Notes under the pieces: generated by a model
Database searches by the model: none
What the model was told of the DNA's origin: nothing
Seen by the model: the letters and a program-made list of their open reading frames with translations, nothing else
Position numbers and translations under genes: made by a program
Source of the DNA: a virus
IMG/VR virus record: IMGVR_UViG_3300046505_000276
Location: 1 to 24,737 of that record
Length of the DNA: 24,737 nt
Reading direction: 5' to 3' (one strand)
In this document: one piece after another, positions 1 to 20,421 of the stretch
How the letters are laid out: each line of letters starts with the position of its first letter
Numbering within the stretch: the first letter of the stretch is position 1

Positions 1-592
1 GGTAGAGGCCGAAAATGGCACGCACCTGCTCGGCCTCGGCCTCGTTGACCAGCAGCTTCCGGCCACCCGGTGCCACGTCGTAGCCCAGGATGGGCACCCC
101 GCCGCACCAGCGGCCAAGGCGCTTGGTAGCCGCCACCTTGTCGCGCACGCGCTCAATCATGTTCTCACGCTCGAACTGGGCGAAGCAGATCAGGATGTTG
201 AGCATCAACCGGCCCATGGGCGTGGCCGTGTTGAAGTGCTGGGTCACGGAAACAAAGGCAACTTGGTGCTTCTCCAGTAGTTGGAGCAGGCCGACAAAGT
301 CGTTTAGCGAGCGCGACAGGCGGTCGAGCTTGTAGACCGCGATGATCTGGATCTTGCCCGCCTCGACATCCGCGAGGAGCCGCTTCAGCGCGGGTCGGTC
401 GGTGTTGCTGCCGGAGAAGCCACCGTCGTCGTAACGGGCATCGCTAGCCACCCAGCCCTCGTGGCGCTGGCTGGCGATGAACTGCTCGCAGCACTGCCGC
501 TGGGCGTCCTGGCTGTTGAACTCCCGGTCGAGCCCCTCCTCGGTGCTCTTGCGGCAGTAGATGGCGACGGTCTTGGGAGCAGGGGTCGTCAT
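1..592 (-). CDS. Large serine recombinase (phage integrase), N-terminal part, cut by window edge
   Basis: Catalyses site-specific integration and excision of the prophage. About 197 N-terminal residues are visible. The resolvase-type catalytic domain starts with IYCRKSTEEG (nucleophile Ser16), followed by the family signature DDGGFSGSNTDRPAL, the arginine motif YKLDRLSRSLNDF and the helix containing GRLMLNILICFAQFERE. The zinc-ribbon recombinase domain is just beginning (GRWCGGVPILGYDV) when the window ends. The ATG at 590-592 overlaps the stop of the DUF2924 gene by 4 bp (ATGA), implying translational coupling; that pairing is common in proteobacterial prophages. The family call is firm. The attachment site must lie outside the window on the left or far right, since none is visible here. 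Confidence 0.93.
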   Translation of the reverse strand, partial: MTTPAPKTVAIYCRKSTEEGLDREFNSQDAQRQCCEQFIASQRHEGWVASDARYDDGGFSGSNTDRPALKRLLADVEAGKIQIIAVYKLDRLSRSLNDFVGLLQLLEKHQVAFVSVTQHFNTATPMGRLMLNILICFAQFERENMIERVRDKVAATKRLGRWCGGVPILGYDVAPGGRKLLVNEAEAEQVRAIFGLY

Positions 593-1083
593 GCTGCACC
601 TACGCGTTTGGTCAGGCCGAAGAACAGGTACCCGTTCCACTTGGTTCCCGTCACCGCCTTGGCCAAGGAAGACAGGCTGCGGTATATGGCGCCATCGTGC
701 TCGAAACCCTCGGGGTGGACCGTGGCGAGGATTGTGCGGCCCTTCCATTCCCGGCGCAGCACGGTGCCGGGGGCGAGACCCGTATCCCGGGCCTGGGGCA
801 AGGTGATGACCTTGGTGCGGGAGGGATCGGGCGTGCCGGCGCGGTCGACCGGGCGCCGCTCGCGCAACTGTGCGTCCTTGGCCAGTTCGGCGGCGCGCAC
901 CAGGGCCCGCTCGCTGAGGCCCCCCTCCTCTGCGGCCTGGAGGCGCCAGGCGATGCGGCGGACCAGCCAAGTCTTGTGGCGGGAGGCAGTTGGCTCGCCC
1001 AATGCCTCGTGGTGGTAGACGCGCAACTCGTTCACCGTCATGGTGTCGAGGCGCGCGATGGCGGCTGTGGTTGCTGGGGACAT
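589..1083 (-). CDS. DUF2924 family protein
   Basis: A 164-aa protein of the DUF2924 family, typically encoded immediately upstream of a serine recombinase in prophages. Its biochemical role is not established; it is presumed to bind DNA or assist the recombinase. Visible hallmarks are the N-terminal helix MTVNELRVYHHEALGEP, the motif KTWLVRRIAWRLQ, and a C-terminal half with PGTVLRREWKGR, followed by HPEGFEHDGAIYRSLSSLAK, a small beta-rich DNA-binding-like module, ending in TGTKWNGYLFFGL. It sits 12 bp downstream of the 69-aa gene and overlaps the recombinase start, so the three genes form one minus-strand operon. The recombinase association is known for the family; assistance in integration is inference. 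Confidence 0.85.
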   Translation of the reverse strand: MSPATTAAIARLDTMTVNELRVYHHEALGEPTASRHKTWLVRRIAWRLQAAEEGGLSERALVRAAELAKDAQLRERRPVDRAGTPDPSRTKVITLPQARDTGLAPGTVLRREWKGRTILATVHPEGFEHDGAIYRSLSSLAKAVTGTKWNGYLFFGLTKRVGAA

Positions 1084-1485: not shown

Positions 1486-2070
1486 TCACGTCGAAATGTC
1501 GGAAAGAAGAGCGTCTCTTAGAGATTTCCTGAGCTGCTCGAGCATATTCAGATATTCCTCTGCCAGTTTAATGCCGTCTTTTGTCACTTGGGAATCCTCA
1601 ATATCGACCTCGTGTCTTCCGACCTCGCACTTTGAAATCATATCGGATATCATTTTTATTTGTTCATCGCTTAGAAGATGTCCATACTTGCGCTCAAAAT
1701 CGACTATCGCTAGCAAGTATTTATCAAACCATCGGGCAACCTGTTCGCACGCTTCGTGCCAGTCCATATCTGGATACGCAAATGTTGGCTGCGCGTCCCG
1801 ATAAATGTTGATAATCTGTTTTGTTGCTGCCACCTTATCGTCAAATAAGATTGACGACTTATTGATTCTATCCTTGTACTTTTCCATGTCCTTGAGAAGT
1901 CGACTTCTCAACTCGTCTGTCTCTTTGGTGTACATTATCTTTGCCTGCAAGAGAATGCGCTCAGCCCAAATCTTCCCAATCCAATTTGACAACGCGTATA
2001 ATAGCAGTGTTCCACCGCCAAGTGATCCAAGAATCGTTATGGCAAGTTGTGATTGCTCTGAAAATGTCAT
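1486..2070 (-). CDS. Membrane-anchored coiled-coil protein, unknown function
   Basis: A 194-aa protein. Residues about 8-32 form one hydrophobic segment (ITILGSLGGGTLLLYALSNWIG). A long charged helical region follows (about 33-75: KETDELRSRLLKDMEKYKDR), and then a helical C-terminal domain with DWHEACEQVARWFDKYLLAIVDFERKYG. I recognise the architecture (short N-terminal anchor with glycine turn, then a coiled coil) as a recurring orphan type near phage-defence genes, but I know no assigned function. The ATG has AGAGGAAAG just upstream. The gene is clearly AT-richer than its surroundings and runs divergently from the 2576-5582 module, consistent with separate acquisition. It may be a component of the neighbouring module or an independent cargo gene. 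Confidence 0.7.
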   Translation of the reverse strand: MTFSEQSQLAITILGSLGGGTLLLYALSNWIGKIWAERILLQAKIMYTKETDELRSRLLKDMEKYKDRINKSSILFDDKVAATKQIINIYRDAQPTFAYPDMDWHEACEQVARWFDKYLLAIVDFERKYGHLLSDEQIKMISDMISKCEVGRHEVDIEDSQVTKDGIKLAEEYLNMLEQLRKSLRDALLSDIST

Positions 2071-2575: not shown

Positions 2576-3370
2576 ATGGGCCATTCGTATCTTTCTGATC
2601 TGCCGAAGTCGCGGCCCTGGAAGGACGTTGTTGGCCTAGTGAAAGGAGGCGGAAGCGCGCCCCAAGTAGCTCGGGCAGTGATGGAAGCGGCGAAGGAGGG
2701 GCTCATCGGCGCTGAATCCAGCAAGGGACTCATAGAGGCAACCTACCTGCTAATGCAGCTACCGATTGCTGCACGCAGTGGCAACCCGGTCGAGGCATTG
2801 CGCCAAGCCGGCATCCCAGTCGAGGATGGCTTCGGCCTGCCATCGTTGATGGCGGGACTGGCGACGGCCATGGGTAACGCATTTCACCATTGCCACGGCA
2901 AGGACGATGTGGGCGAGATCGCCCGCCGTGCCCTGCATACGTCAGTGGGAGAACTACTGGCGACCCGTGCCCCGCGGCTAGATGGCATAACCCATGCTTC
3001 AATCGTCGATGAATTGGGAAAGTTGGGAACTGAGAAACAATTCGGCATCGTCGGCAAGAGCTTCTTTGGAAAATTCATGGATGGCTATGTACGCCAATTC
3101 CTCGACCGTGTCTTGATGCGACAGATCGGCGAAGATCGCCGCTTTAACACACTGGAACGGGCTGATCACTTTGGTGACGCAGTCAGTACTCACTGCGGTG
3201 AGATGGCCGTCCTGTTCCAGGACTACTCGGGCGGATGGTTCACCAAGCACCGTTACGAGAACGACGGCGTCATCAACAGAGATGATGTGCGCGGCTTCCT
3301 TTGGAAGGCGATGGATAAAATGCGTTCGGAGTTCGACCTCGAAGCGAGTAAGAGCCATGACAACGACTGA
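2576..3370 (+). CDS. Unknown 264-aa partner protein of the QueC-like enzyme (QatB-like position)
   Basis: A 264-aa protein with no motif I can name. It begins MGHSYLSDLPKSRPWKDVV, then has a Gly/Ala-rich helical region (GGGSAPQVARAVMEAAKEGL), a central segment with LPSLMAGLATAMGNAFHHCHG, and a C-terminal part ending in GFLWKAMDKMRSEFDLE. I chose the ATG at 2576; an upstream TTG at 2459 has no ribosome site and adds 39 residues of unlikely composition. GAGG lies about 12 bases before the ATG, which is weak. The frame overlaps the QueC-like gene by 14 bp, so the two are coupled. In Qat systems a protein of similar size (QatB, often starting MG) precedes QatC. That comparison rests on position, size and the N-terminal MG, not on demonstrated homology. 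Confidence 0.75.
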   Translation: MGHSYLSDLPKSRPWKDVVGLVKGGGSAPQVARAVMEAAKEGLIGAESSKGLIEATYLLMQLPIAARSGNPVEALRQAGIPVEDGFGLPSLMAGLATAMGNAFHHCHGKDDVGEIARRALHTSVGELLATRAPRLDGITHASIVDELGKLGTEKQFGIVGKSFFGKFMDGYVRQFLDRVLMRQIGEDRRFNTLERADHFGDAVSTHCGEMAVLFQDYSGGWFTKHRYENDGVINRDDVRGFLWKAMDKMRSEFDLEASKSHDND

Positions 3371-5582
3371 TGTTTTCTGCGGGAGTTTGGGGCGTGCTAC
3401 GCCAGCGAACACGCCCGGCCATCGCATCATCCTGATGGGAACCGGAGCCAACGCGGTTCTGAATCTCGACCACCTATGTAGACCACTGGTGCGCAATGTC
3501 CCATCCCATTTCCACGACTTGCTGGAAATCGCCGCCTACGTCTATGTCGCAGATCAGATGACCAATCGACGCGGGAAGGGCCATGAGGGTGACTATGGCA
3601 AGCTCTGGCGACGGCAGTTCCACTTCTCAGTCCCAGTTCGCTCCCCCGATTTCTGGAATCAGCAGGAGGTCATGGATGCCCTGGTGGAGGCAGTGGGATT
3701 CTTATCGGACGACGAATACGAATTCACTTTCTCGCAAGATCAGCAGCCAACGCCCTATCAACAATACATCCAATTTCAGGACCGTGCGCCTTGGGAACAG
3801 GCCGATGACGTCGTCCTGTTCTCGGGCGGACTCGACTCTCTGGCTGGCGTCGTTGAACAGATACTCACTCATCGGCAGCGTTTGGTGCTGGTGACACATG
3901 CATCAAGTAATAAGTTTGAGACATGGCACGCAACCCTGCGTGCCCAGATTAACCAGCGGGCTGGCGACATTCACCCCCAATATGTGAAGGTCACTGCTCA
4001 CAAGCTAATCGACACGGAGGAATACACCCAACGCTCGCGCTCGTTTCTCTATGCATCCCTGGCCTGCACCATCGCCAACATGACAGGTAAGAAGCGCATC
4101 CGTTTCTTCGAGAACGGTGTCACCAGTCTGAACTTGCCGATCAGTGGACAGATTATCGGATCTCGTGCCACTCGCACCACTCATCCAGAGACCTTGCGGC
4201 GCTTCGCTAAGTTCTTCAGTCTGCTGGCGAATGAACAGTTCGTGGTTGAGAACCCATTCCAATGGTTCACCAAGACCGATATCGTGGGTATAATTGTCAG
4301 CCTCGGCTGTCAAAGCATGATCGAAAATGCTACCAGTTGCGCTCATACCTGGCGTATGCCCCGGCAGATCAGCCATTGTGGAACGTGCTCGCAATGCGTG
4401 GATCGCCGACTGGCGACGATTGCTGCCAATGCAAAAGATCACGACCCGCAGCGACTCTATCGCAAGAACCTCTTCACTTCTGCACTGAACGATGAGGGAG
4501 TGAACAAAGACCGTACACTTGCCGGTTCATATGCACTGACCGCCTTGACCTGGGAGAAAATGACGGAATCGGAACTGTTCATCTCCGAGGGAGATATCGG
4601 GCAGGCCCTGGCAGCGATGCCCGGTTCCGCCACCGAGAATGCCCGCAAGATCGTCGACCTCCTGCATCGGCACGCCCGCGCCGTCAAGTCTGCCATCGCT
4701 GCGGGTATCGCCGACTATCGTGACAACCTGACCGACCGGGTTGCCATCGATGCCGACTCGTTCCTCTATATGATCCTCGGACGCGAGCACGGTGAACCCG
4801 ATCAGCAGACCATCAGGCCTCTCTCTTCTTCGCCCGAACAGCGCGTTTTGCCCAATTGGTTCCGCCCTGCAGACAAGAACTTTTATGTGATGTTGAATGG
4901 CAATGGCCCCCACGAAATCAAAAACATTATCGGCGCCCAAATGCTACACTGGTTGCTACAACGTCCGCGGATTCCTGTTTCATGCCGCGACATAGCTAGT
5001 CACCTGTATGAGCAGTGCCCAAAGCTACTCAAAGGATCAGATCATCGCAAATACCAACGCGCCGTACAGGTGATCAACGAATACGAAGGAGAGGTTAACG
5101 CCTGGGAAGATCAGCAGAAAGAGCATGAGGATGAGTCTTCTGAATCAGGCGGCATTGAAATGAAGGTTGAAGTAATCACGGATGAACAACTCTCAATTGT
5201 TGAGAAATCTATCAAAGAGCGGCGGGAAGAACTTGCTGATGGACCTGCCGCAAAGCGAAAGGCCATTATCCTGGATGAAATTGAGAAGTTGGAGACGTAC
5301 CGCAAACGCGCCACGATGCCAGGGAGACCGAACAAGCCAAAGTCCGTGAATGCGGCACAACTGCGACTGCAGAAGTCACTCTGGAACGCTCTCCAGACTG
5401 TTCTGAAGGCCCTCCACGGCGCCGATCCTGCCCTAGCGAAATACCTCAACAGTCCCGCCAAGGGTGGGCATATCTCGACCGGCTACCTGATGACCTTCCT
5501 TCAGCCTCCTGATGCGGGGGAATGGGATCTCACCAGCACCTCGCTCAAGAAATTGATGGGAAACGGATCGGTAGCTTCGTAA
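3357..5582 (+). CDS. QueC-like PP-loop ATPase, QatC-type defence protein, with long C-terminal extension
   Basis: A 741-aa protein, three times the length of housekeeping QueC (about 230 aa). Residues 1-150 carry the N-terminal domain seen in QatC-like proteins (HDLLEIAAYVYVADQ, then WRRQFHFSVPVRSPDFW and GFLSDDEYEFTFSQ). The PP-loop is VVLFSGGLDSLAGV with SGGLDS at 156-161, for ATP/AMP chemistry. Cysteines at 328, 341, 344 and 347 (CGTCSQC) match the QueC zinc site. Residues about 400-560 are helical, about 590-650 are charged and coiled-coil-like, and the basic end has QLRLQKSLWNALQTVLKALH. QueC makes preQ0; defence homologues are linked to 7-deazaguanine chemistry on nucleic acid or protein. 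No queD/queE/queF, ATPase (QatA) or TatD nuclease (QatD) gene is adjacent, arguing against tRNA queuosine synthesis and against a complete Qat operon. Confidence 0.85.
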   Translation: MTTTDVFCGSLGRATPANTPGHRIILMGTGANAVLNLDHLCRPLVRNVPSHFHDLLEIAAYVYVADQMTNRRGKGHEGDYGKLWRRQFHFSVPVRSPDFWNQQEVMDALVEAVGFLSDDEYEFTFSQDQQPTPYQQYIQFQDRAPWEQADDVVLFSGGLDSLAGVVEQILTHRQRLVLVTHASSNKFETWHATLRAQINQRAGDIHPQYVKVTAHKLIDTEEYTQRSRSFLYASLACTIANMTGKKRIRFFENGVTSLNLPISGQIIGSRATRTTHPETLRRFAKFFSLLANEQFVVENPFQWFTKTDIVGIIVSLGCQSMIENATSCAHTWRMPRQISHCGTCSQCVDRRLATIAANAKDHDPQRLYRKNLFTSALNDEGVNKDRTLAGSYALTALTWEKMTESELFISEGDIGQALAAMPGSATENARKIVDLLHRHARAVKSAIAAGIADYRDNLTDRVAIDADSFLYMILGREHGEPDQQTIRPLSSSPEQRVLPNWFRPADKNFYVMLNGNGPHEIKNIIGAQMLHWLLQRPRIPVSCRDIASHLYEQCPKLLKGSDHRKYQRAVQVINEYEGEVNAWEDQQKEHEDESSESGGIEMKVEVITDEQLSIVEKSIKERREELADGPAAKRKAIILDEIEKLETYRKRATMPGRPNKPKSVNAAQLRLQKSLWNALQTVLKALHGADPALAKYLNSPAKGGHISTGYLMTFLQPPDAGEWDLTSTSLKKLMGNGSVAS

Positions 5583-14439: not shown

Positions 14440-14604
14440 GTTTCCCACCTCTGTTTCCCACCTTGGGAAACATTCCCTGACCTGGGAAACATCAGTGTTT
14501 CCCACCCATGTTTCCCACCCCTCCGCGCGCCCCCTTAAGGGGGGCGCGGGGGAGTGGGAAACGTGGTGGGTGATTTTTGTTTCCCACCTCGGCGGGTGGG
14601 AAAC
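14440..14604. repeat. Array of nine GTTTCCCA/TGGGAAAC sites, candidate replication origin
   Basis: Forward copies start at 14440, 14453, 14497, 14510 and 14579. Reverse copies start at 14464, 14483, 14555 and 14597. Six sites extend to GTTTCCCACC or its complement. Some are paired as dyads: 14453/14464 with a 3-bp gap, 14483/14497 with a 6-bp gap, and 14579/14595 as 10-bp arms with a 6-bp gap. Two forward pairs repeat at 13-bp spacing. A hairpin, CGCG-CCCCC-TTAA-GGGGG-CGCG with one extra G (14525-14548), sits in the middle. The array lies in a 357-bp gene-free gap just after the primase-helicase, where phage origins often lie. The remainder of the gap (14605-14783) shows nothing clear beyond sequence leading into the next gene. 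Confidence 0.65.
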
Positions 14605-14783
14605 GGGTAACACGCGACCTGGCGCGCCGAGATGCGCCGCTGACTTGGCGTTGCATTTCTCGACGCGGCCATGGTTCCTTCCCGGCGGATGGGCTTCCCG
14701 ATACCGCAGGGAACAGTGGCAATAGGACCGAGACTTTCTTTCTGTTGGCCGAGTTCCTCTCCACCCCTGACCAGGATCATCCT

Positions 14784-16082
14784 ATGCACATCGAATCCCG
14801 CCCCTTCGATTCCATCCGGCCCTACGAGAACAACCCCCGCCAGAACGACGACGCAGTGGTGGCGGTGGCCGAGAGCATCCGCCAGTTCGGCTTCCGCCAG
14901 CCCATCGTGGTGGATGCCGACGGTGTAATCGTCATCGGTCACACCCGCTGGCGCGCCGCCAAGAAGTTGGGTCTCGCAGAAGTTCCGGTTCATGTCGCCG
15001 CGGAGCTGAGCGCCGACCAGGTCCGAGCGCTGCGCATCGCCGACAACAAGACCGCCGAGATTGCGGAGTGGGATTTCGACAAGCTCGGCATCGAGTTGAA
15101 GGCCCTGGATGGCAGCAACCTCGACCTGGACCTCGTGGCGCTGGGCTTCGACCAGGGGGAACTGAATCGCCTACTGGCGACCAATCCCGACGAGGAGCAG
15201 GGCGACCCGGACGCCGTGCCGGTAGAGCAGGATACCGTGATCAGCCAGCCCGGCGAGGTCTACCACTTGGGACCGCACCGGCTCATGTGCGGGGACTCCA
15301 CCAGCGCCCAGAACTGGCATCGGCTCCTGGGAGACGAGCGCGGCGCACTCTGCTTCACCTCGCCACCATATGCCCAGCAGCGTGCCTACGAGGGCGGTAT
15401 CGGGGATTGGGACAGCCTCATGCGCGGCGTCTTCGCCGCCCTGTCTCTGACGGAGCATGCCCAGGTGTTCGTGAACCTGGGGCTGGTCCATCGGGACAAC
15501 GAATGGCAGCCCTACTGGGACGCCTGGATCGACTGGATGGCCACCCAGGGCTGGCGGCGCTTCGGCTGGTATATCTGGGACCAAGGGCCCGGACTGATGG
15601 GCGATTGGGCAGGACGCTTCGCGCCTGCCCATGAGTTCATCTGGCACTTCAATCGGCAGGCGCGCAGGCCGCACAAGACGAAGGAATGCAAGCTCGCCGG
15701 GGCGACCACCGGCAGCGTCATGCGCAATCCCGATGGCAGCATGAAACCGGCGACCGGCGCAGGCGATGCCATCCAGTCGCACAAGATCCCCGACAGCGTG
15801 GTGCGCATCATGCGACACAAGGGCGCGGTTCCCGGTGGCGACCACCCCGCGGTCTTCCCGGTAGCCCTGCCGCTGGAGTTCTACGCCGCCTACGGCGACC
15901 CCGGCGACATCGCACTGGAACCCTTCTGCGGCAGTGGCACCAGCCTCATCGCCGGGTCCAAGGCCGGGCTCCAGGTTCGGGCCATGGAGTTGGCACCCCT
16001 CTACTGCGACGTGGCTCGGCGCCGCTGGACGACCTGGGCCCAGTCCAACGGCCAGGATCCCGGACCAGGCGCACTGGCCTGA
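14784..16082 (+). CDS. ParB-domain / DNA methyltransferase fusion (SPPY type)
   Basis: A 432-aa protein. Residues 1-130 are a ParB/Srx-like domain (PYENNPRQNDDAVVAVAESI, then FRQPIVV and GHTRWRAAK at 52-60). Residues about 155-425 are a beta-class methyltransferase with catalytic FTSPPYAQQR (SPPY at 193-196) before the SAM-binding ALEPFCGSGTSLIA near residue 380. The SPPY variant is usual for N4-cytosine enzymes, whereas N6-adenine enzymes usually have DPPY. It would methylate phage DNA, with the ParB-like part possibly guiding DNA binding. The ATG at 14784 is where homology begins; upstream in-frame codons run through the repeat array and are not coding. The next gene is a paralogue 25 bp downstream. 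Confidence 0.87.
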   Translation: MHIESRPFDSIRPYENNPRQNDDAVVAVAESIRQFGFRQPIVVDADGVIVIGHTRWRAAKKLGLAEVPVHVAAELSADQVRALRIADNKTAEIAEWDFDKLGIELKALDGSNLDLDLVALGFDQGELNRLLATNPDEEQGDPDAVPVEQDTVISQPGEVYHLGPHRLMCGDSTSAQNWHRLLGDERGALCFTSPPYAQQRAYEGGIGDWDSLMRGVFAALSLTEHAQVFVNLGLVHRDNEWQPYWDAWIDWMATQGWRRFGWYIWDQGPGLMGDWAGRFAPAHEFIWHFNRQARRPHKTKECKLAGATTGSVMRNPDGSMKPATGAGDAIQSHKIPDSVVRIMRHKGAVPGGDHPAVFPVALPLEFYAAYGDPGDIALEPFCGSGTSLIAGSKAGLQVRAMELAPLYCDVARRRWTTWAQSNGQDPGPGALA

Positions 16083-16107
16083 CCACCCCCATCACTTGGA
16101 GCCGACC

Positions 16108-17352
16108 ATGCACCTCGAACAGCGCCCCATCACCTCCATCCACCCCTACCCGGGCAACCCACGGCAGAACGACGACGCCGTGGTCGCCGTCGCCGAGAGC
16201 ATCCGCCAGTTTGGCTTCCGCCAGCCCATCGTGGTCGATGCTGAAGGCGTGGTCATCTGCGGCCACACCCGCCTGGCTGCCGCCCAGCGCCTGGGGTTGG
16301 CCACCGTGCCGGTGCATGTGGCGGCCGATTTGACGCCCGACCAGATCCGCGCCTACCGGGTGGCGGACAACAAGACCAATGAGTTGTCCTCCTGGGATCT
16401 GGACAAGCTGGCCATTGAACTGAAGGCCATCGACGGCAGCGACCTCGATCTCGATCTCGGCCTACTCGGTTTCGACCGGGACGAACTCGCCCGCCTACTC
16501 GACCCCGGCGTTCACGAGGGTCTGACCGATCCCGACGAAGTGCCGCCGGTCCCCGATGCCGGGCAGACGCTCTGCCAGCCAGGCGACCTGTGCTTGCTCG
16601 GCGAGCACCGCGTGCTCTGCGGTGACAGCACCAAGCCCGAGGACATGGCCCGGCTTATGGACGGCGGCGAGGCCGATCTGCTGCTCACCGATCCGCCCTA
16701 CAACGTCGCCTACGAAGGCGGAACCGATGCGGCCATGACCATCGCCAACGACGACATGGACGATGCTTCCTACCGGAAGTTCCTCGTCGCCAGCCTTGGC
16801 GCATCAGTCGCGGCGCTACGCGCCGGAGGCGCGTTCTACATCTGGCACGCCGACTCGGAGGGACTGACCGTGCGCGGGGCCTGCGCCGACATCGGCCTCA
16901 CCGTGCGGCAGTGCTTGGTCTGGGCGAAGTCGTCGCTGGTGCTTGGGCGGCAGGACTACCAGTGGAAGCACGAGCCCTGCCTCTACGGCTGGAAGGATGG
17001 CGCCAGCCACACCTGGCTCTCGGATCGCAGCCAGACCACGGTCCTCGAGTTCGACAAGCCCAGCCGCAACGGCGAGCACCCCACCATGAAGCCGGTGCCG
17101 CTGTTCGTGTACCTGGTGCGGAACTCCTGCGCGCCAGGCGGTGTGGTCCTCGACCCCTTCGGTGGCTCCGGCACCGCCCTCATCGCCGCCGAGCAGACCG
17201 GGCGCCGGGCTCGGCTCATAGAACTCGATCCACGCTACTGCGATGTGATCGTGAAACGCTGGGAGCAGTTCACTGGCAAGCAGGCCCAGCGCATCGCCAC
17301 CGCCACCAACGAGCAGGCCCCGGCGCAAGCCGGGGCCGTCGAGGGCGCGTGA
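16108..17352 (+). CDS. ParB-domain / DNA methyltransferase fusion (DPPY type)
   Basis: A 414-aa paralogue of the preceding gene. The ParB-like domain (1-130) is the same length, and residues 17-45 are identical in the two proteins, with GHTRLAAAQ at 52-60. The methyltransferase part has LTDPPYNVAYEGG (DPPY at 195-198), HPTMKPVPLFVYLV and LDPFGGSGTALIAAE. The DPPY motif and order fit a beta-class N6-adenine enzyme. It ends with an alanine-rich tail containing a GC-rich hairpin. It follows the first enzyme by 25 bp with GGAGCC upstream of the ATG, so both are expressed together. No cognate restriction gene is adjacent, so the pair are probably orphan protective methylases. Confidence 0.88.
   Translation: MHLEQRPITSIHPYPGNPRQNDDAVVAVAESIRQFGFRQPIVVDAEGVVICGHTRLAAAQRLGLATVPVHVAADLTPDQIRAYRVADNKTNELSSWDLDKLAIELKAIDGSDLDLDLGLLGFDRDELARLLDPGVHEGLTDPDEVPPVPDAGQTLCQPGDLCLLGEHRVLCGDSTKPEDMARLMDGGEADLLLTDPPYNVAYEGGTDAAMTIANDDMDDASYRKFLVASLGASVAALRAGGAFYIWHADSEGLTVRGACADIGLTVRQCLVWAKSSLVLGRQDYQWKHEPCLYGWKDGASHTWLSDRSQTTVLEFDKPSRNGEHPTMKPVPLFVYLVRNSCAPGGVVLDPFGGSGTALIAAEQTGRRARLIELDPRYCDVIVKRWEQFTGKQAQRIATATNEQAPAQAGAVEGA
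17316..17337. terminator. 9-bp hairpin with GCAA loop at the end of the methyltransferase gene
   Basis: GGCCCCGGC, loop GCAA, GCCGGGGCC: a perfect stem capped by a GNRA tetraloop, 13 bp before the stop codon and just before a convergent gene. There is no T-run. It may act as a transcription barrier for both strands or may simply reflect GC-rich coding sequence. Confidence 0.4.
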
Positions 17353-17363
17353 TGATCGGGCGC

Positions 17364-17657
17364 CTACTCGTCCTCGTCTTCGTCCTCCCCCTCGTCGCCG
17401 TTTTCCAGGCGGTCGATCCAGTCGTCGATGTTCATGCTGCGGTCCAGGAACCCGTGACCTCTGGCGGCCAGGATGCGCAGGTGATCGACCACGTAGGCCT
17501 CGGCGTTGTCGTCCTTGGTCTCGCGCACGACATCCTGCAGCACGTCGATGGCCGCCTGGATCAGGGCCTGGGCGGTGCGGACGCGGTCGACAGCCGGGGC
17601 CTGGGGATCGAAGTCGGTGATGAGGTCTTCGAGGTCGAGGAGTTGGTGGTTGGGCAT
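17364..17657 (-). CDS. Small acidic protein, 97 aa, unknown function
   Basis: A 97-aa protein starting MPNHQLLDLEDLITDFDPQA and ending in the highly acidic tail ENGDEGEDEDEDE. The middle is helical (RTAQALIQAAIDVLQDVVRE, then YVVDHLRILAARG). AAGGAA lies seven bases before the ATG; a TTG five codons upstream is less likely. It lies 54 bp after the 122-aa gene on the same strand, so the two probably share the leader at 18081-18170. A DNA-mimic or chaperone role is suggested only by the acidity. Confidence 0.7.
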   Translation of the reverse strand: MPNHQLLDLEDLITDFDPQAPAVDRVRTAQALIQAAIDVLQDVVRETKDDNAEAYVVDHLRILAARGHGFLDRSMNIDDWIDRLENGDEGEDEDEDE

Positions 17658-17711
17658 GGCAGGTTCCTTCAAGGGGTGGTTTCGTTCATTGGCTCGCTGG
17701 TCCGGGCCGCC

Positions 17712-18080
17712 TCAGCGGCGGCACCGGCGGTTGAGGTCATCCTGCGTGGCCAGGAGCAGGTCGGGGTCGTGGCATTCCTTGCGGGCGCAGAGGAGGCGGG
17801 CTTCGCAGGCTCCGATCAGGGGCAGCAGGTGCATCGCGATGCGCGCGCTGCGGTAGCGCGGGTAGCTGCCGCCTTCGGCGTTGACCAGGACCACATCCAC
17901 CCCGTCCGTGACCAGGGCGTAGCCGGCGTGGCCACCCGAACCGCACAGTATGGCGAGGTCGGGTGCGATGCGATCGAAGTCGTCAAGGCAACTGACCAGG
18001 CGGCGGAGCACCGCCGTCGTGGTGACGATGCGGTACTGGCAGGGGAAGTGGGTGGGGGGGATGTTGGGGGCGGTTGGCAT
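17712..18080 (-). CDS. Hypothetical 122-aa protein, leader-A gene
   Basis: A 122-aa protein starting MPTAPNIPPTHFPCQYRIVT, with a central SCLDDFDRIAPDLAILCGSG, then HAGYALVTDGVDVVLVNAEG and a C-terminal half with HLLPLIGACEARLLCARKEC. I do not recognise it. Six cysteines are scattered without a clear CxxC pair. The ATG at 18080 has CGGAGA upstream at normal spacing. Its upstream region is one of three near-identical leaders. It is the first gene of a two-gene minus-strand unit with the acidic 97-aa protein. Confidence 0.65.
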   Translation of the reverse strand: MPTAPNIPPTHFPCQYRIVTTTAVLRRLVSCLDDFDRIAPDLAILCGSGGHAGYALVTDGVDVVLVNAEGGSYPRYRSARIAMHLLPLIGACEARLLCARKECHDPDLLLATQDDLNRRCRR

Positions 18081-18170
18081 GGGCGATCTCCGTTGGGTAC
18101 TGCTGGCTGTGTTACCGATGCACATCGAGCACATCCACTTGCGTCTCCCCGTGAAAACATGGTGCCTCAT
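18081..18170 (-). promoter_or_regulatory. Shared leader, copy A
   Basis: A roughly 90-bp leader shared with copies at 19515-19604 and 20061-20150. The 29-bp core at 18109-18137 (minus strand: TGGATG, 17 bp, TAACAC) differs from each other copy by one base and ends exactly 28 bp before the ATG in all three. The ribosome site GGAGA follows the core. TGGATG and TAACAC at 17-bp spacing resemble -35 and -10 boxes, giving a leader RNA of about 20 bases. The rest of 18171-18278 holds no gene I can support. Confidence 0.6.
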
Positions 18171-18278
18171 TGGGTTGGTAATCGGCTCCACACGAACGGG
18201 GATGGGCAGGGCCGCCATGAACGACCAGACCTCGACCCATGGGGCCGAGGTGGGGAGGCGGTGCTCCTGATTGGCCGT

Positions 18279-18908
18279 TCAGCTAGCGGCGGCGAAGCGG
18301 CCCCGGTCGACCTTCTGGAAGCGGCTGGCCGTGCCCTTGGCCTTGATCTCGCGGATCATGGCGGCGTAGATCGTCGCGGCCGGCGTCTTGCCATCCGTCT
18401 TCCACAAGCCGCGCTCGATGATGCGCTTGACCAGATCCTGGGCGTTCAGCGGCTCGCCGGCCTGGCGCAGAACCTGGGCGGCGGCGTCCAGGCCCGAGAG
18501 GCTTTTGGGCTTGACGGGCTTGGCGGCCTTGGGCTTCTTGGCGACCTTCGGGGCCTTTGGTTTGGCGGCGGCCTCGACCTTCGGGGTGGAAGCGTCCTTG
18601 GCGGTCGGGTCGGTGGTGGGCGCGGATGCGGTGGCCTCCGACGGGGGCGCGTCGGCGAGGCGGGCCCGCGCCGCCTCGATGGCCTGCTGCAAGGCGGGCA
18701 GGGCCTCGTCCCAGGCCGCAACGGCGCGGCGCAGGTTGTTGGCCCCGCCGTTGGCGCGCTGGGTGAGATCGAGGTGCTTGCGGTCGGCCTGGACCTTCCA
18801 GGCCTCGACGCGGCTGAGGAGGGCCTGCAGCGTCTTGCCGTCGAGCAGCTTGAGTTGGTTGACGAAGCGCCGCGCGGTGGCGGGTTCGAGGTTGTGGGTG
18901 GTGGACAT
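18279..18908 (-). CDS. HARE-HTH domain protein with basic Lys/Pro/Ala-rich linker
   Basis: A 209-aa protein. Residues 1-85 are helical (ATARRFVNQLKLLDGKTLQA, then LRRAVAAWDEALPALQQAIE). Residues about 88-135 are low-complexity and basic (KAPKVAKKPKAAKPVKPK), like a histone H1 tail. Residues 136-209 form a HARE-HTH winged helix (LDAAAQVLRQAGEPLNAQDL, VKRIIERGLWKTDGKTPAAT, then FQKVDRGRFAAA), a domain found in RNA polymerase delta subunit, chromatin proteins and some restriction systems, often tied to modified DNA. GGGAGAAT precedes the ATG. It lies 66 bp after the 179-aa gene, so it is probably in the leader-B unit. A nucleoid- or DNA-modification-reading role is inferred. Confidence 0.78.
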   Translation of the reverse strand: MSTTHNLEPATARRFVNQLKLLDGKTLQALLSRVEAWKVQADRKHLDLTQRANGGANNLRRAVAAWDEALPALQQAIEAARARLADAPPSEATASAPTTDPTAKDASTPKVEAAAKPKAPKVAKKPKAAKPVKPKSLSGLDAAAQVLRQAGEPLNAQDLVKRIIERGLWKTDGKTPAATIYAAMIREIKAKGTASRFQKVDRGRFAAAS

Positions 18909-18937
18909 GGCATTCTCCCTGATTGGGGGTTGGTGAA

Positions 18938-18964
18938 GCCCGGCCGGGAACACCCCGACCGGGC
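18938..18964 (-). promoter_or_regulatory. Intercistronic hairpin between two minus-strand genes
   Basis: GCCCGGCCGGG, loop AACAC, CCCGACCGGGC: an 11-bp stem with one mismatch (wobble in one RNA sense), located in the 66-bp gap upstream of the HARE-HTH gene. It may act as an attenuator or RNA-processing site that lowers expression of the second gene. No T-run follows. Confidence 0.35.
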
Positions 18965-18974
18965 GGGTGAGGGT

Positions 18975-19514
18975 TCAGCAGGTGGCGGGGCCGTAGAGGT
19001 GATCGGCGAGGCGCTCGCCCAGGGAGTCGACCGCGGCCTGCGTGGCGGCGTCGGCAGCCGGGATGGCGAGGCCGCGATCCCAGGCGTAGGCGATCGCGTT
19101 GTTGTCGAGCCGGCGCAGTTCCAGCTTCGAGATCCGGCTGCGACCGATCTCGTAGGTGGCATCCCTGGCGTGCTCGGGGTAGACCTTGGCCTGGAAGCTG
19201 AAGGCGCGGATGCGGCCGATGGCCCAGGTCGGGGCGTCGTCTTCCGGCTTGGAACTGGTGAGGATCAGGTCGCCCAAGACGGCGGTGGGCTTGCGCTCGG
19301 GGCGCTTGTTCGCTTTCCGGCCGGCTTCGAAGGCGGCGCGCAGTGCGTCGCGGATGGCCCAGCAGGCGTGGTCCTTGAAGTCGAGGTTGTCGAGGTGCTG
19401 GCTCTCCAGGGTTTCCAAGCCGAGGTGGACCTGGGCGATGGCGGCGATGACCGCGTCGCGTTCGCTGGGGGCGGCGGTCGGGTTGGTGGGGTGGGTGGTG
19501 GGGCGCTTGGCCAT
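18975..19514 (-). CDS. Hypothetical 179-aa protein, leader-B gene
   Basis: A 179-aa protein starting MAKRPTTHPTNPTAAPSERD. It has a long helix (DAVIAAIAQVHLGLETLESQ), then FKDHACWAIRDALRAAFEAG, a basic stretch (RKANKRPERKP), a beta-like segment (TWAIGRIRAFSFQAKVYPEH) and a C-terminal helix with QAAVDSLGERLADHLYGPAT. I do not recognise the family. The ATG has GGAGAAACAACC upstream. It is first in a minus-strand unit with the HARE-HTH protein downstream, which may be functionally linked. Confidence 0.65.
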   Translation of the reverse strand: MAKRPTTHPTNPTAAPSERDAVIAAIAQVHLGLETLESQHLDNLDFKDHACWAIRDALRAAFEAGRKANKRPERKPTAVLGDLILTSSKPEDDAPTWAIGRIRAFSFQAKVYPEHARDATYEIGRSRISKLELRRLDNNAIAYAWDRGLAIPAADAATQAAVDSLGERLADHLYGPATC

Positions 19515-19604
19515 GGTTGTTTCTCCTTGGGTACTGCGGTTCGTGTTACCGATGCACATCGAGGACATCCAGTTGAGTCCCGCCGTGAAACCATGGTGCA
19601 TCAT
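19515..19604 (-). promoter_or_regulatory. Shared leader, copy B
   Basis: Second copy of the roughly 90-bp leader. The 29-bp core at 19543-19571 differs from copy A by one base (GATGTCC for GATGTGC on the minus strand). Distance to the ATG and position of the ribosome site equal those of the other copies. The part 5' of the core (TGCACCATGGTTTCACGGCG on the minus strand) is closely matched in copy A and less so in copy C. Between here and 19654 I see no gene. Confidence 0.6.
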
Positions 19605-19653
19605 GCTGTTAGTGATCAGGGACACACGTCCGGCTGGCGGGACTTGACTGGCC

Positions 19654-19686
19654 GTCCGGCGACCGGGGTTATCCCCGGCGCCGGAC
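19654..19686 (-). terminator. Strong hairpin 12 bp after the 120-aa gene
   Basis: GTCCGGCG, one extra A, CCGGGG, loop TTAT, CCCCGG, CGCCGGAC: a 14-bp stem with a single bulge, directly downstream (minus sense) of the stop at 19698. It is the strongest hairpin in the window. It lacks a T-run, but its position suggests it ends the leader-C unit and shields the leader-B unit. Confidence 0.5.
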
Positions 19687-19697
19687 CAGCCAGGACG

Positions 19698-20060
19698 TCA
19701 GACCGCTGCGAAGCCCGCCAGCAGGAAGTCCAGCAGGTGCGCCGGGGCGCCGATCTCCTGCCGAAACCAGGCCTCGGCCTCGGCGGGCGACGCGAAGGGG
19801 TGCTGCAGGCAGCGGCCTCCAAAATCGTTCTGGGCGTCATCGTCGATCATGAGGCAGCCACCGGTGGCATCGAGGATCAGCAGCCAGCCGCGCTTGTCGC
19901 CCAGCGTCGCCTTGCCCTCGGCGATCAGCGGCTCGGCGCCATCGGCGAAGCGTTCGGCGCCGGCAAAGCCGTACCAATCCTCTCTGGCAAAGGGGCGGAA
20001 GGTCACGGCGGTGGCCTCGGGGGCGGCAGCGTCGGTGGGGGTGTTGGGGGTGTCGGGCAT
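19698..20060 (-). CDS. Hypothetical 120-aa protein, leader-C gene
   Basis: A 120-aa acidic protein starting MPDTPNTPTDAAAPEATAVT. It has FRPFAREDWYGFAGAERFAD, a strand-rich centre (LGDKRGWLLILDATGGCLMI), then DDDAQNDFGGRCLQHPFASP and the helical end EAWFRQEIGAPAHLLDFLLA. I do not recognise it. It forms a single-gene unit with its own leader and a strong hairpin behind it, the layout of a moron (an independently expressed accessory gene) in a prophage. CGGAGAT precedes the ATG. Confidence 0.68.
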   Translation of the reverse strand: MPDTPNTPTDAAAPEATAVTFRPFAREDWYGFAGAERFADGAEPLIAEGKATLGDKRGWLLILDATGGCLMIDDDAQNDFGGRCLQHPFASPAEAEAWFRQEIGAPAHLLDFLLAGFAAV

Positions 20061-20150
20061 GGTCGATCTCCGTTGGGTACTGCTGGTCGTGTTACCCATG
20101 CACATCGAGCACATCCAGTTGAGTTCGGCACCGTGGAAGGGGTGCATCAT
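20061..20150 (-). promoter_or_regulatory. Shared leader, copy C
   Basis: Third copy of the leader. The 29-bp core at 20089-20117 differs from copy A by one base (CATGGGT for CATCGGT on the minus strand), and the TAACAC hexamer and 28-bp distance to the ATG are kept. The sequence 5' of the core has diverged most here. It lies beside the plus-strand packaging operon, so promoters for the two strands may be close. Confidence 0.6.
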
Positions 20151-20181
20151 CAGCTGACCCGGCCGGCCCCAGGAGGCGCAG

Positions 20182-20421
20182 ATGGCGCTTGATAATCCAT
20201 CGCGCCCGGATGCCGAAACCCCACGTTTGACCGCCCTCGCCATCGAGCAGGCGGCCAGCCTGCTGCGTCGCTCTGGCAGTCAGAGCATCGACGCCGAGCG
20301 TATCCGCGCCGACATCGCTGTCGGCGCCCCGGTCAACCGCGATGGCACCCTGAACCTGATCGCCTATGGGGCCTGGCTGGTGCAGGAACTGGCGCGGAAA
20401 GAAGGCGCGCATGCCTCCTAA
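20182..20421 (+). CDS. Small phage protein, 79 aa, in small-terminase position
   Basis: A 79-aa protein starting MALDNPSRPDAETPRLTALA, with EQAASLLRRSGSQSIDAERI, then RADIAVGAPVNRDGTLNLIA and YGAWLVQELARKEG. The second half looks like a conserved phage module found next to terminases, but I cannot name the family. GGAGGCGCAG precedes the ATG. It overlaps the terminase gene by 11 bp. In lambda the small terminase Nu1 holds this place; this protein is much shorter than Nu1 (181 aa), so the role is uncertain. Confidence 0.65.
   Translation: MALDNPSRPDAETPRLTALAIEQAASLLRRSGSQSIDAERIRADIAVGAPVNRDGTLNLIAYGAWLVQELARKEGAHAS

Follow-up and report, generated by a model that had tools for sequence, protein, structure and literature searches.

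QueC is used by phages for DNA modification. A QueC-type ATP enzyme, Cap9, is also found in type IV CBASS, a system that features N-terminal deazaguanylation of its CD-NTase, a partner with a conserved N-terminal Met-Gly. The closest described counterparts of the locus presented here are the Qat systems, in which the overlapping genes qatB and qatC are accompanied by qatA and qatD, encoding a KAP ATPase (QatA) and a TatD protein (QatD), respectively. QatBC alone suffices for defence against lambda-vir, and this defence depends on Gly2 of QatB and the PP-loop of QatC (PMC13279940). The N-terminal MGTS...P.W of QatB, including Gly2 and the P16/W18 region, is essential for defence (PMC13279940). 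Reconstitution of QatC activity has not been achieved so far and its chemistry is open (PMC13279940); queuosine is not restored by QatC (PMC13329287). The motifs of the QatC cluster are D, D(x)4R...WxR, DxW/YxxxF, RxRxxxF/Y, ExG, HP, P(x)4TK and C...CGxCxxCxxRR (PMC13329287).

Gene pair and phage setting

A two-gene module resembling qatBC was identified in IMGVR_UViG_3300046505_000276, a linear virus record in IMG/VR that was analysed over positions 1 to 24,737 (the window). The genes B (2576..3370, + strand) and C (3357..5582, + strand) encode a 264-aa helical QatB-like protein, the putative substrate of C, and a 741-aa QatC-like protein, respectively. Both are ATG open reading frames, and their coordinates agree with the protein sizes and the 14-bp overlap given in a preliminary description of this DNA. 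Gene B is supported by family homologues and a fold match of its AlphaFold2 (AF2) model, and gene C by QatC HMMs and a fold match to the crystal chain 9y02_B. An upstream extension of B is possible, as a TTG at 2459 would give 303 aa; since the relatives align from the MGH start, with M1 and G2 in 60 of 60, the start at 2576 is taken to be right.

The left end of the window contains a gene for a large serine recombinase that runs off the window end (2..600, - strand; phrog_95 integrase, 1e-65; integration-module context) and, beside it, a gene for a DUF2924 protein (589..1083, - strand; PF11149, 4.4e-39). Other genes encode a sigma-like factor, a RecE-like exonuclease, Sak4, SSB, a helicase, a primase, ParB/methyltransferases, a terminase and a portal protein. 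This gene content is consistent with a tailed phage; megablast of the window found no close phage record. QatA and QatD are absent from the window and no queuosine-pathway gene was found among its PHROG-scanned open reading frames, as had been noted earlier for the neighbourhood of the pair. The GC content of the B-C region is 54-57% (about 55%) versus 67% for the window to the right of the pair, and its third-position GC is 63-65% versus 83-85% in the genes encoding primase, terminase and portal protein. On account of this lower GC, the pair resembles acquired cargo.

Several other genes of the window were recorded. Between B and the recombinase module, the interval 1486-2070 (- strand, 43% GC) encodes a protein of 194 aa that seems to have a membrane segment at its N-terminus and a coiled coil; it weakly matches an uncharacterised PHROG and is unlike known defence models. 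Two related ParB-like/DNA methyltransferase genes (14577-16082 and 15934-17352), both phrog_498, lie in tandem. A 1093-aa open reading frame directly before the terminase gene (16911-20192, + strand) has no match in PHROG or PADLOC.

Proteins C and B compared with QatC and QatB

Protein C scores 201.4 bits against the NCBIfam QatC model NF041925 (equivalog cut-off of 280 bits not reached), 2.8e-49 against the PADLOC QatC model and 38 bits against Pfam QueC (PF06508, cut-off 22), which together exclude a chance match. With TIGR00364 (canonical QueC), it scores 23.8 bits and stays under the cut-off of 150.3. A profile of the C family matches a profile of ten QatC proteins over 401 columns (probability 100%, E 1e-54). 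Residues 2-476 of the AlphaFold2 model of C (pLDDT 84.9) match crystal QatC 9y02_B with Z 33.7 (409/427 residues, rmsd 3.4, 23% identity), and the model contains the QatC fold with the N- and C-terminal extensions that only QatC has. This score is far above those of QueC (3bl5) and Cap9 (9nto), both Z 12.9, which match the QueC-like Rossmann core at residues 148-361 (3798..4439, + strand). The resemblance of C to QatC that had been proposed earlier is therefore borne out by profile comparison, fold and motifs.

The PP-loop SGGLDS (ATP pyrophosphatase; residues 156-161, 3822..3839, + strand) is intact as first described, and S156, G157, G158, D160 and S161 are present in 61/61 members. The QueC-type zinc site, C328...C341GxC344xxC347..RR (4338..4409, + strand), was likewise confirmed in its CGxCxxCxxRR context, with the four cysteines and R350/R351 invariant (61/61). 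The TRTTHP motif (residues 272-277, 4170..4187, + strand) aligns with the TRTTHP of QatC and is the equivalent of its T278/T280 and HP; T272 is T or S in 61/61 members, T274 is conserved in 60/61, and T275 and H276 in 61/61. Where C has the Thr/Thr pair of this motif, QueC and Cap9 have the Tyr/Asp that recognises the base. C retains nearly all of the published QatC motifs, most of them invariant among 61 diverse members: D54, D66-R71, W84-R86, D119-F125, R226-R228, E252-G254, H276-P277, P300-T305K306 and C328/C341/C344/C347/R350R351. P300 is kept in 54/61 members, and the R-to-W spacing of D(x)4R...WxR exceeds that of QatC. Compared with canonical QueC, C shares the PP-loop, the zinc site and the core fold, but lacks the QueC catalytic motifs, is three times larger, has a partner protein and has no que genes beside it. 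A Cys at residue 8 of C (3378-3380), in an ILCG-like motif, is present in 58/61 members and absent from ten aligned QatC proteins.

No match to protein B was obtained in Pfam, NCBIfam, PADLOC or PHROGs, nor any by tblastn against plasmids. A search of PDB sequences with the B-family profile returned chance matches only, and PADLOC/NCBIfam scans of 60 members gave scattered weak matches, among them one weak match (1/60) to the QatB model NF041924. The B and QatB profiles have no significant similarity in hhalign (probability 7.8%). The AF2 model of B (pLDDT 88.9) is helical, with residues 1-8 disordered and a helix from residue 13, and aligns with crystal QatB (9y02_A and 9y01_A, Z 12.8 and 12.6, respectively) over 202-209 residues, of which 9-10% are identical (9y02_A: 202/211 residues, rmsd 3.8, 9% identity). 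An unrelated chain follows with only Z 5.9, and Foldseek gives E 0.32 and probability 0.97 for the QatB match. Although a Z of 12.8 is just under the safe level of the tool for helical bundles and is borderline alone, gene position and the conserved N-terminus agree with it, and B is taken to be a true QatB homologue. Its resemblance to QatB, also proposed earlier, is thus one of fold, without significant sequence or profile similarity.

The N-terminal motif of B, MGHSYLSDLPKSRPW (2576..2620, + strand), contains the proposed modified Gly2 and LP...W, and has a counterpart in QatB. Among 60 aligned members, M1 and G2 are conserved in 60/60, H3 in 57/60, L9 in 57/60, P10 in 53/60 and W15 in 56/60. 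The protein starts with MGH in 57/60 members and with MGN or MGQ in the rest, in place of the MGTS of QatB. As aligned, MGH...LP...W recalls the essential MGTS...P.W of QatB. The disordered N-terminal tail is shorter in B (about 10 residues) than in QatB (30-90).

The preliminary description also mentioned an extra C-terminal part of C. This part is present, but its length of 340 residues becomes about 265 when measured against QatC, since the alignment of C with crystal QatC extends to residue 476. The module (residues 477-741, 4785..5579, + strand) lies outside the QatC match and was characterized by DSSP of the model, alignment A9 and tblastn. In the window, the tail is predicted to contain a beta-sheet and helices with a coiled-coil insertion; it may be winged-helix-like, a reading based on predicted secondary structure, as the whole-model fold search barely probes the tail. 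The window tail has no Pfam match, and tail profile A9 found no believable match among PDB sequences.

Across the family, the tails that follow the QatC part comprise 118-468 residues (counted from about residue 453) and fall into unlike groups. The largest group, which includes the window, has a domain common to the C-termini of Streptomyces AAA ATPases; the tail of one relative matches Streptomyces plasmid ATPases at 31-35% identity in tblastn. An OmpR-type DNA-binding domain (Trans_reg_C) was detected in 7/61 tails at E 0.1 or better (best 3.6e-8). The Leptospira copy, a plasmid-borne, isolated B-C pair, has a DpnII-MboI-type nuclease as its tail (PF18742, 1.2e-10). Profiles A9 and A10 have no significant likeness and so were kept as two tail types. 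Judged from these sequence matches, C carries an exchangeable module at its C-terminus, whose domain type differs between members. Three Acidobacteriota members (L048, L050 and L061) of 903-922 aa have a tail of ~470 residues without a confident family.

Distribution and neighbours of the family

Relatives were obtained from two alignment-based scans, which contributed 80 of 137 loci in bacteria and 56 in viruses; these scans were needed, as a viral scan with C as a single sequence found nothing. Without the window and its copy, and with the qat-like loci L004 and L005 set aside, 138 family loci were counted, 82 of which have >=2.5 kb on both sides of the pair. B lies directly before C in 133/138 loci, mostly with an 8-14 bp overlap; qatB and qatC likewise overlap in this order. 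Three of the five loci without B are cut at contig ends, L003 is truncated next to insertion sequences, and no B could be recognised in L017. Searches for QatA and QatD by tblastn and HMM (ten sequences each) were positive in 0/138 family loci versus 10/10 canonical qat controls. The early suggestion of a phage-borne QatBC-like pair that recurs without QatA and QatD is thus upheld, and partners that are normally present and simply lost here are excluded. In a tree built from 61 representatives together with 12 QatC-type proteins, all family members form one group (SH-aLRT 95), within which the window C is a long branch. The family occurs in Pseudomonadota, Planctomycetota, Verrucomicrobiota, Acidobacteriota, Bacteroidota, Myxococcota, Thermodesulfobacteriota and others.

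By these comparisons of sequence, the B-C pair is a separate, widespread and mobile clade and not a reduced Qat; of the earlier wording, a reduced or different system, only the second term fits. A degraded qatABCD operon was considered and is refuted for the clade by the same count and tree. A literature search found no paper naming the two-gene B-C family. The clade was probably overlooked because the window C scores under the NCBIfam QatC cut-off, and the Leptospira pair is annotated 'hypothetical protein'. Relative to the first identification, what is new is that the lineage is distinct, common and mobile, a QatBC-type core that travels alone and often on phages. Outside the family, a Roseomonas mucosa plasmid (L004:5354-10249) carries a diverged QatC-like gene that is preceded by a small gene and has ImmA/IrrE and Shedu genes downstream.

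Large serine recombinases of one cluster lie near 75 family loci, and a cluster related to the DUF2924 protein of the window is present in 36. Recombinase/integrase markers lie within about 7 kb of the pair in 40/77 genome loci and 41/52 viral loci. The pair is also found on plasmids and chromosomes without phage markers, and is not tied to a set position in a single type of phage. In 27 loci (L012:5936-6169 and 26 others), a LexA-type HTH gene absent from the window is located 34-47 bp upstream of B; it encodes a 77-aa protein having the DNA-binding domain without the peptidase, and SOS-type control of the pair is possible. Hma defence genes (HmaA or HmaC) adjoin the pair in about eight loci (L119:1695-5081, L010, L035, L043, L040, L045, L056 and L039), some of which also carry phage recombination genes. 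HmaC lies 5 bp before B in one locus, and a type I restriction gene is near another. No CD-NTase was found among the scanned neighbours of the pair.

Proposed function and alternatives

The B-C pair is probably an immune system, as predicted from homology and context. The reading considered fairly probable is that of a phage-carried two-gene module of QatBC type in which C modifies Gly2 of B, the complex acts against phage and the tail replaces QatA and QatD. Removal of Met1 from B would expose the N-terminal Gly2, and C would bind and activate a carboxylate substrate (a small acid) with ATP at the PP-loop. The activated acid would then be joined to Gly2, as Cap9 does with its CD-NTase and as proposed for QatC and QatB. 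The short disordered tail of B weighs against the proposed reach of Gly2 into the active site of C. The modified complex may act on incoming phage, in superinfection exclusion or lysogen defence, and may do so through the C tail on the invading phage DNA or its expression. The fusion of nuclease or DNA-binding domains in a clade that lacks QatA and QatD suggests that their roles are supplied in cis by the tail, which is of nucleic-acid-binding or nuclease type. The clade would represent a smaller two-gene system, whose natural fusions suggest the events that follow modification. Type IV CBASS differs in having a CD-NTase, Cap10 and an effector, all missing from the B-C module, and B folds like QatB and not like a CD-NTase; C has large extensions compared with Cap9.

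It is possible, with less confidence, that the pair is a free-standing phage-cargo system distinct from Qat, in which a QueC-type ligase adds a non-deazaguanine group to the N-terminal Gly of its partner and the exchangeable domains fused to it, DNA-binding or nuclease, decide the effect. A phage regulatory switch is unlikely; here B-C would control lysogeny or gene expression through a DNA-binding tail, with the QueC-like reaction tuning the regulator. The OmpR-type winged helices of some tails, the LexA-type gene upstream of B in 27 loci and the adjoining integrase module speak for it, and a winged-helix tail could equally belong to a regulator; but the Leptospira tail is a DpnII-type nuclease, tail types differ widely, the core belongs to a defence enzyme, and the pair has no single phage context and is also carried by plasmids and by chromosomes that lack phage markers. 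An overlapping gene pair that sits on mobile elements next to recombinases would also suit a toxin-antitoxin-like or addiction module, in which B is toxic once modified or is restrained by C, for prophage maintenance and not immunity. This is improbable, as B has no toxin or antitoxin family match, and the conserved catalytic site and the Qat precedent favour immunity.

The PF06508 match, the PP-loop and the use of QueC in phage DNA modification could point to a metabolic or counter-defence QueC making deazaguanine for phage DNA or host tRNA. Against this very improbable role stand the score of C far under the TIGR00364 cut-off, the Thr residues that replace Tyr/Asp as in QatC, the absence of queD, queE and tgt beside the pair, and the failure of QatC to restore queuosine (PMC13329287). 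Loss of qatA and qatD from a canonical qatABCD operon in the window phage would explain the QatBC homology, and QatBC alone can defend (PMC13279940); with 0/138 relatives having QatA or QatD and a clade apart from canonical QatC (SH-aLRT 95), it is the least probable of these readings.

The preferred reading, a QatBC-type module modifying Gly2 of B, leaves the acid open, including the 7-deazaguanine link first proposed. A QueD-family gene is present in 21/25 genomes carrying the pair. In the draft assemblies of two isolates, Sneathiella HT1-7 and Shimia abyssi, no match to QueD, canonical QueC or QueE was detected; both retain tRNA-guanine transglycosylase. If the module works in these hosts, host-made 7-carboxy-7-deazaguanine cannot be its substrate; the two genomes are also compatible with use of a salvaged compound or with an inactive module. 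Together with the Thr/Thr site, the two hosts weaken the deazaguanine reading, and they permit a direct test of 7-carboxy-7-deazaguanine as the substrate.
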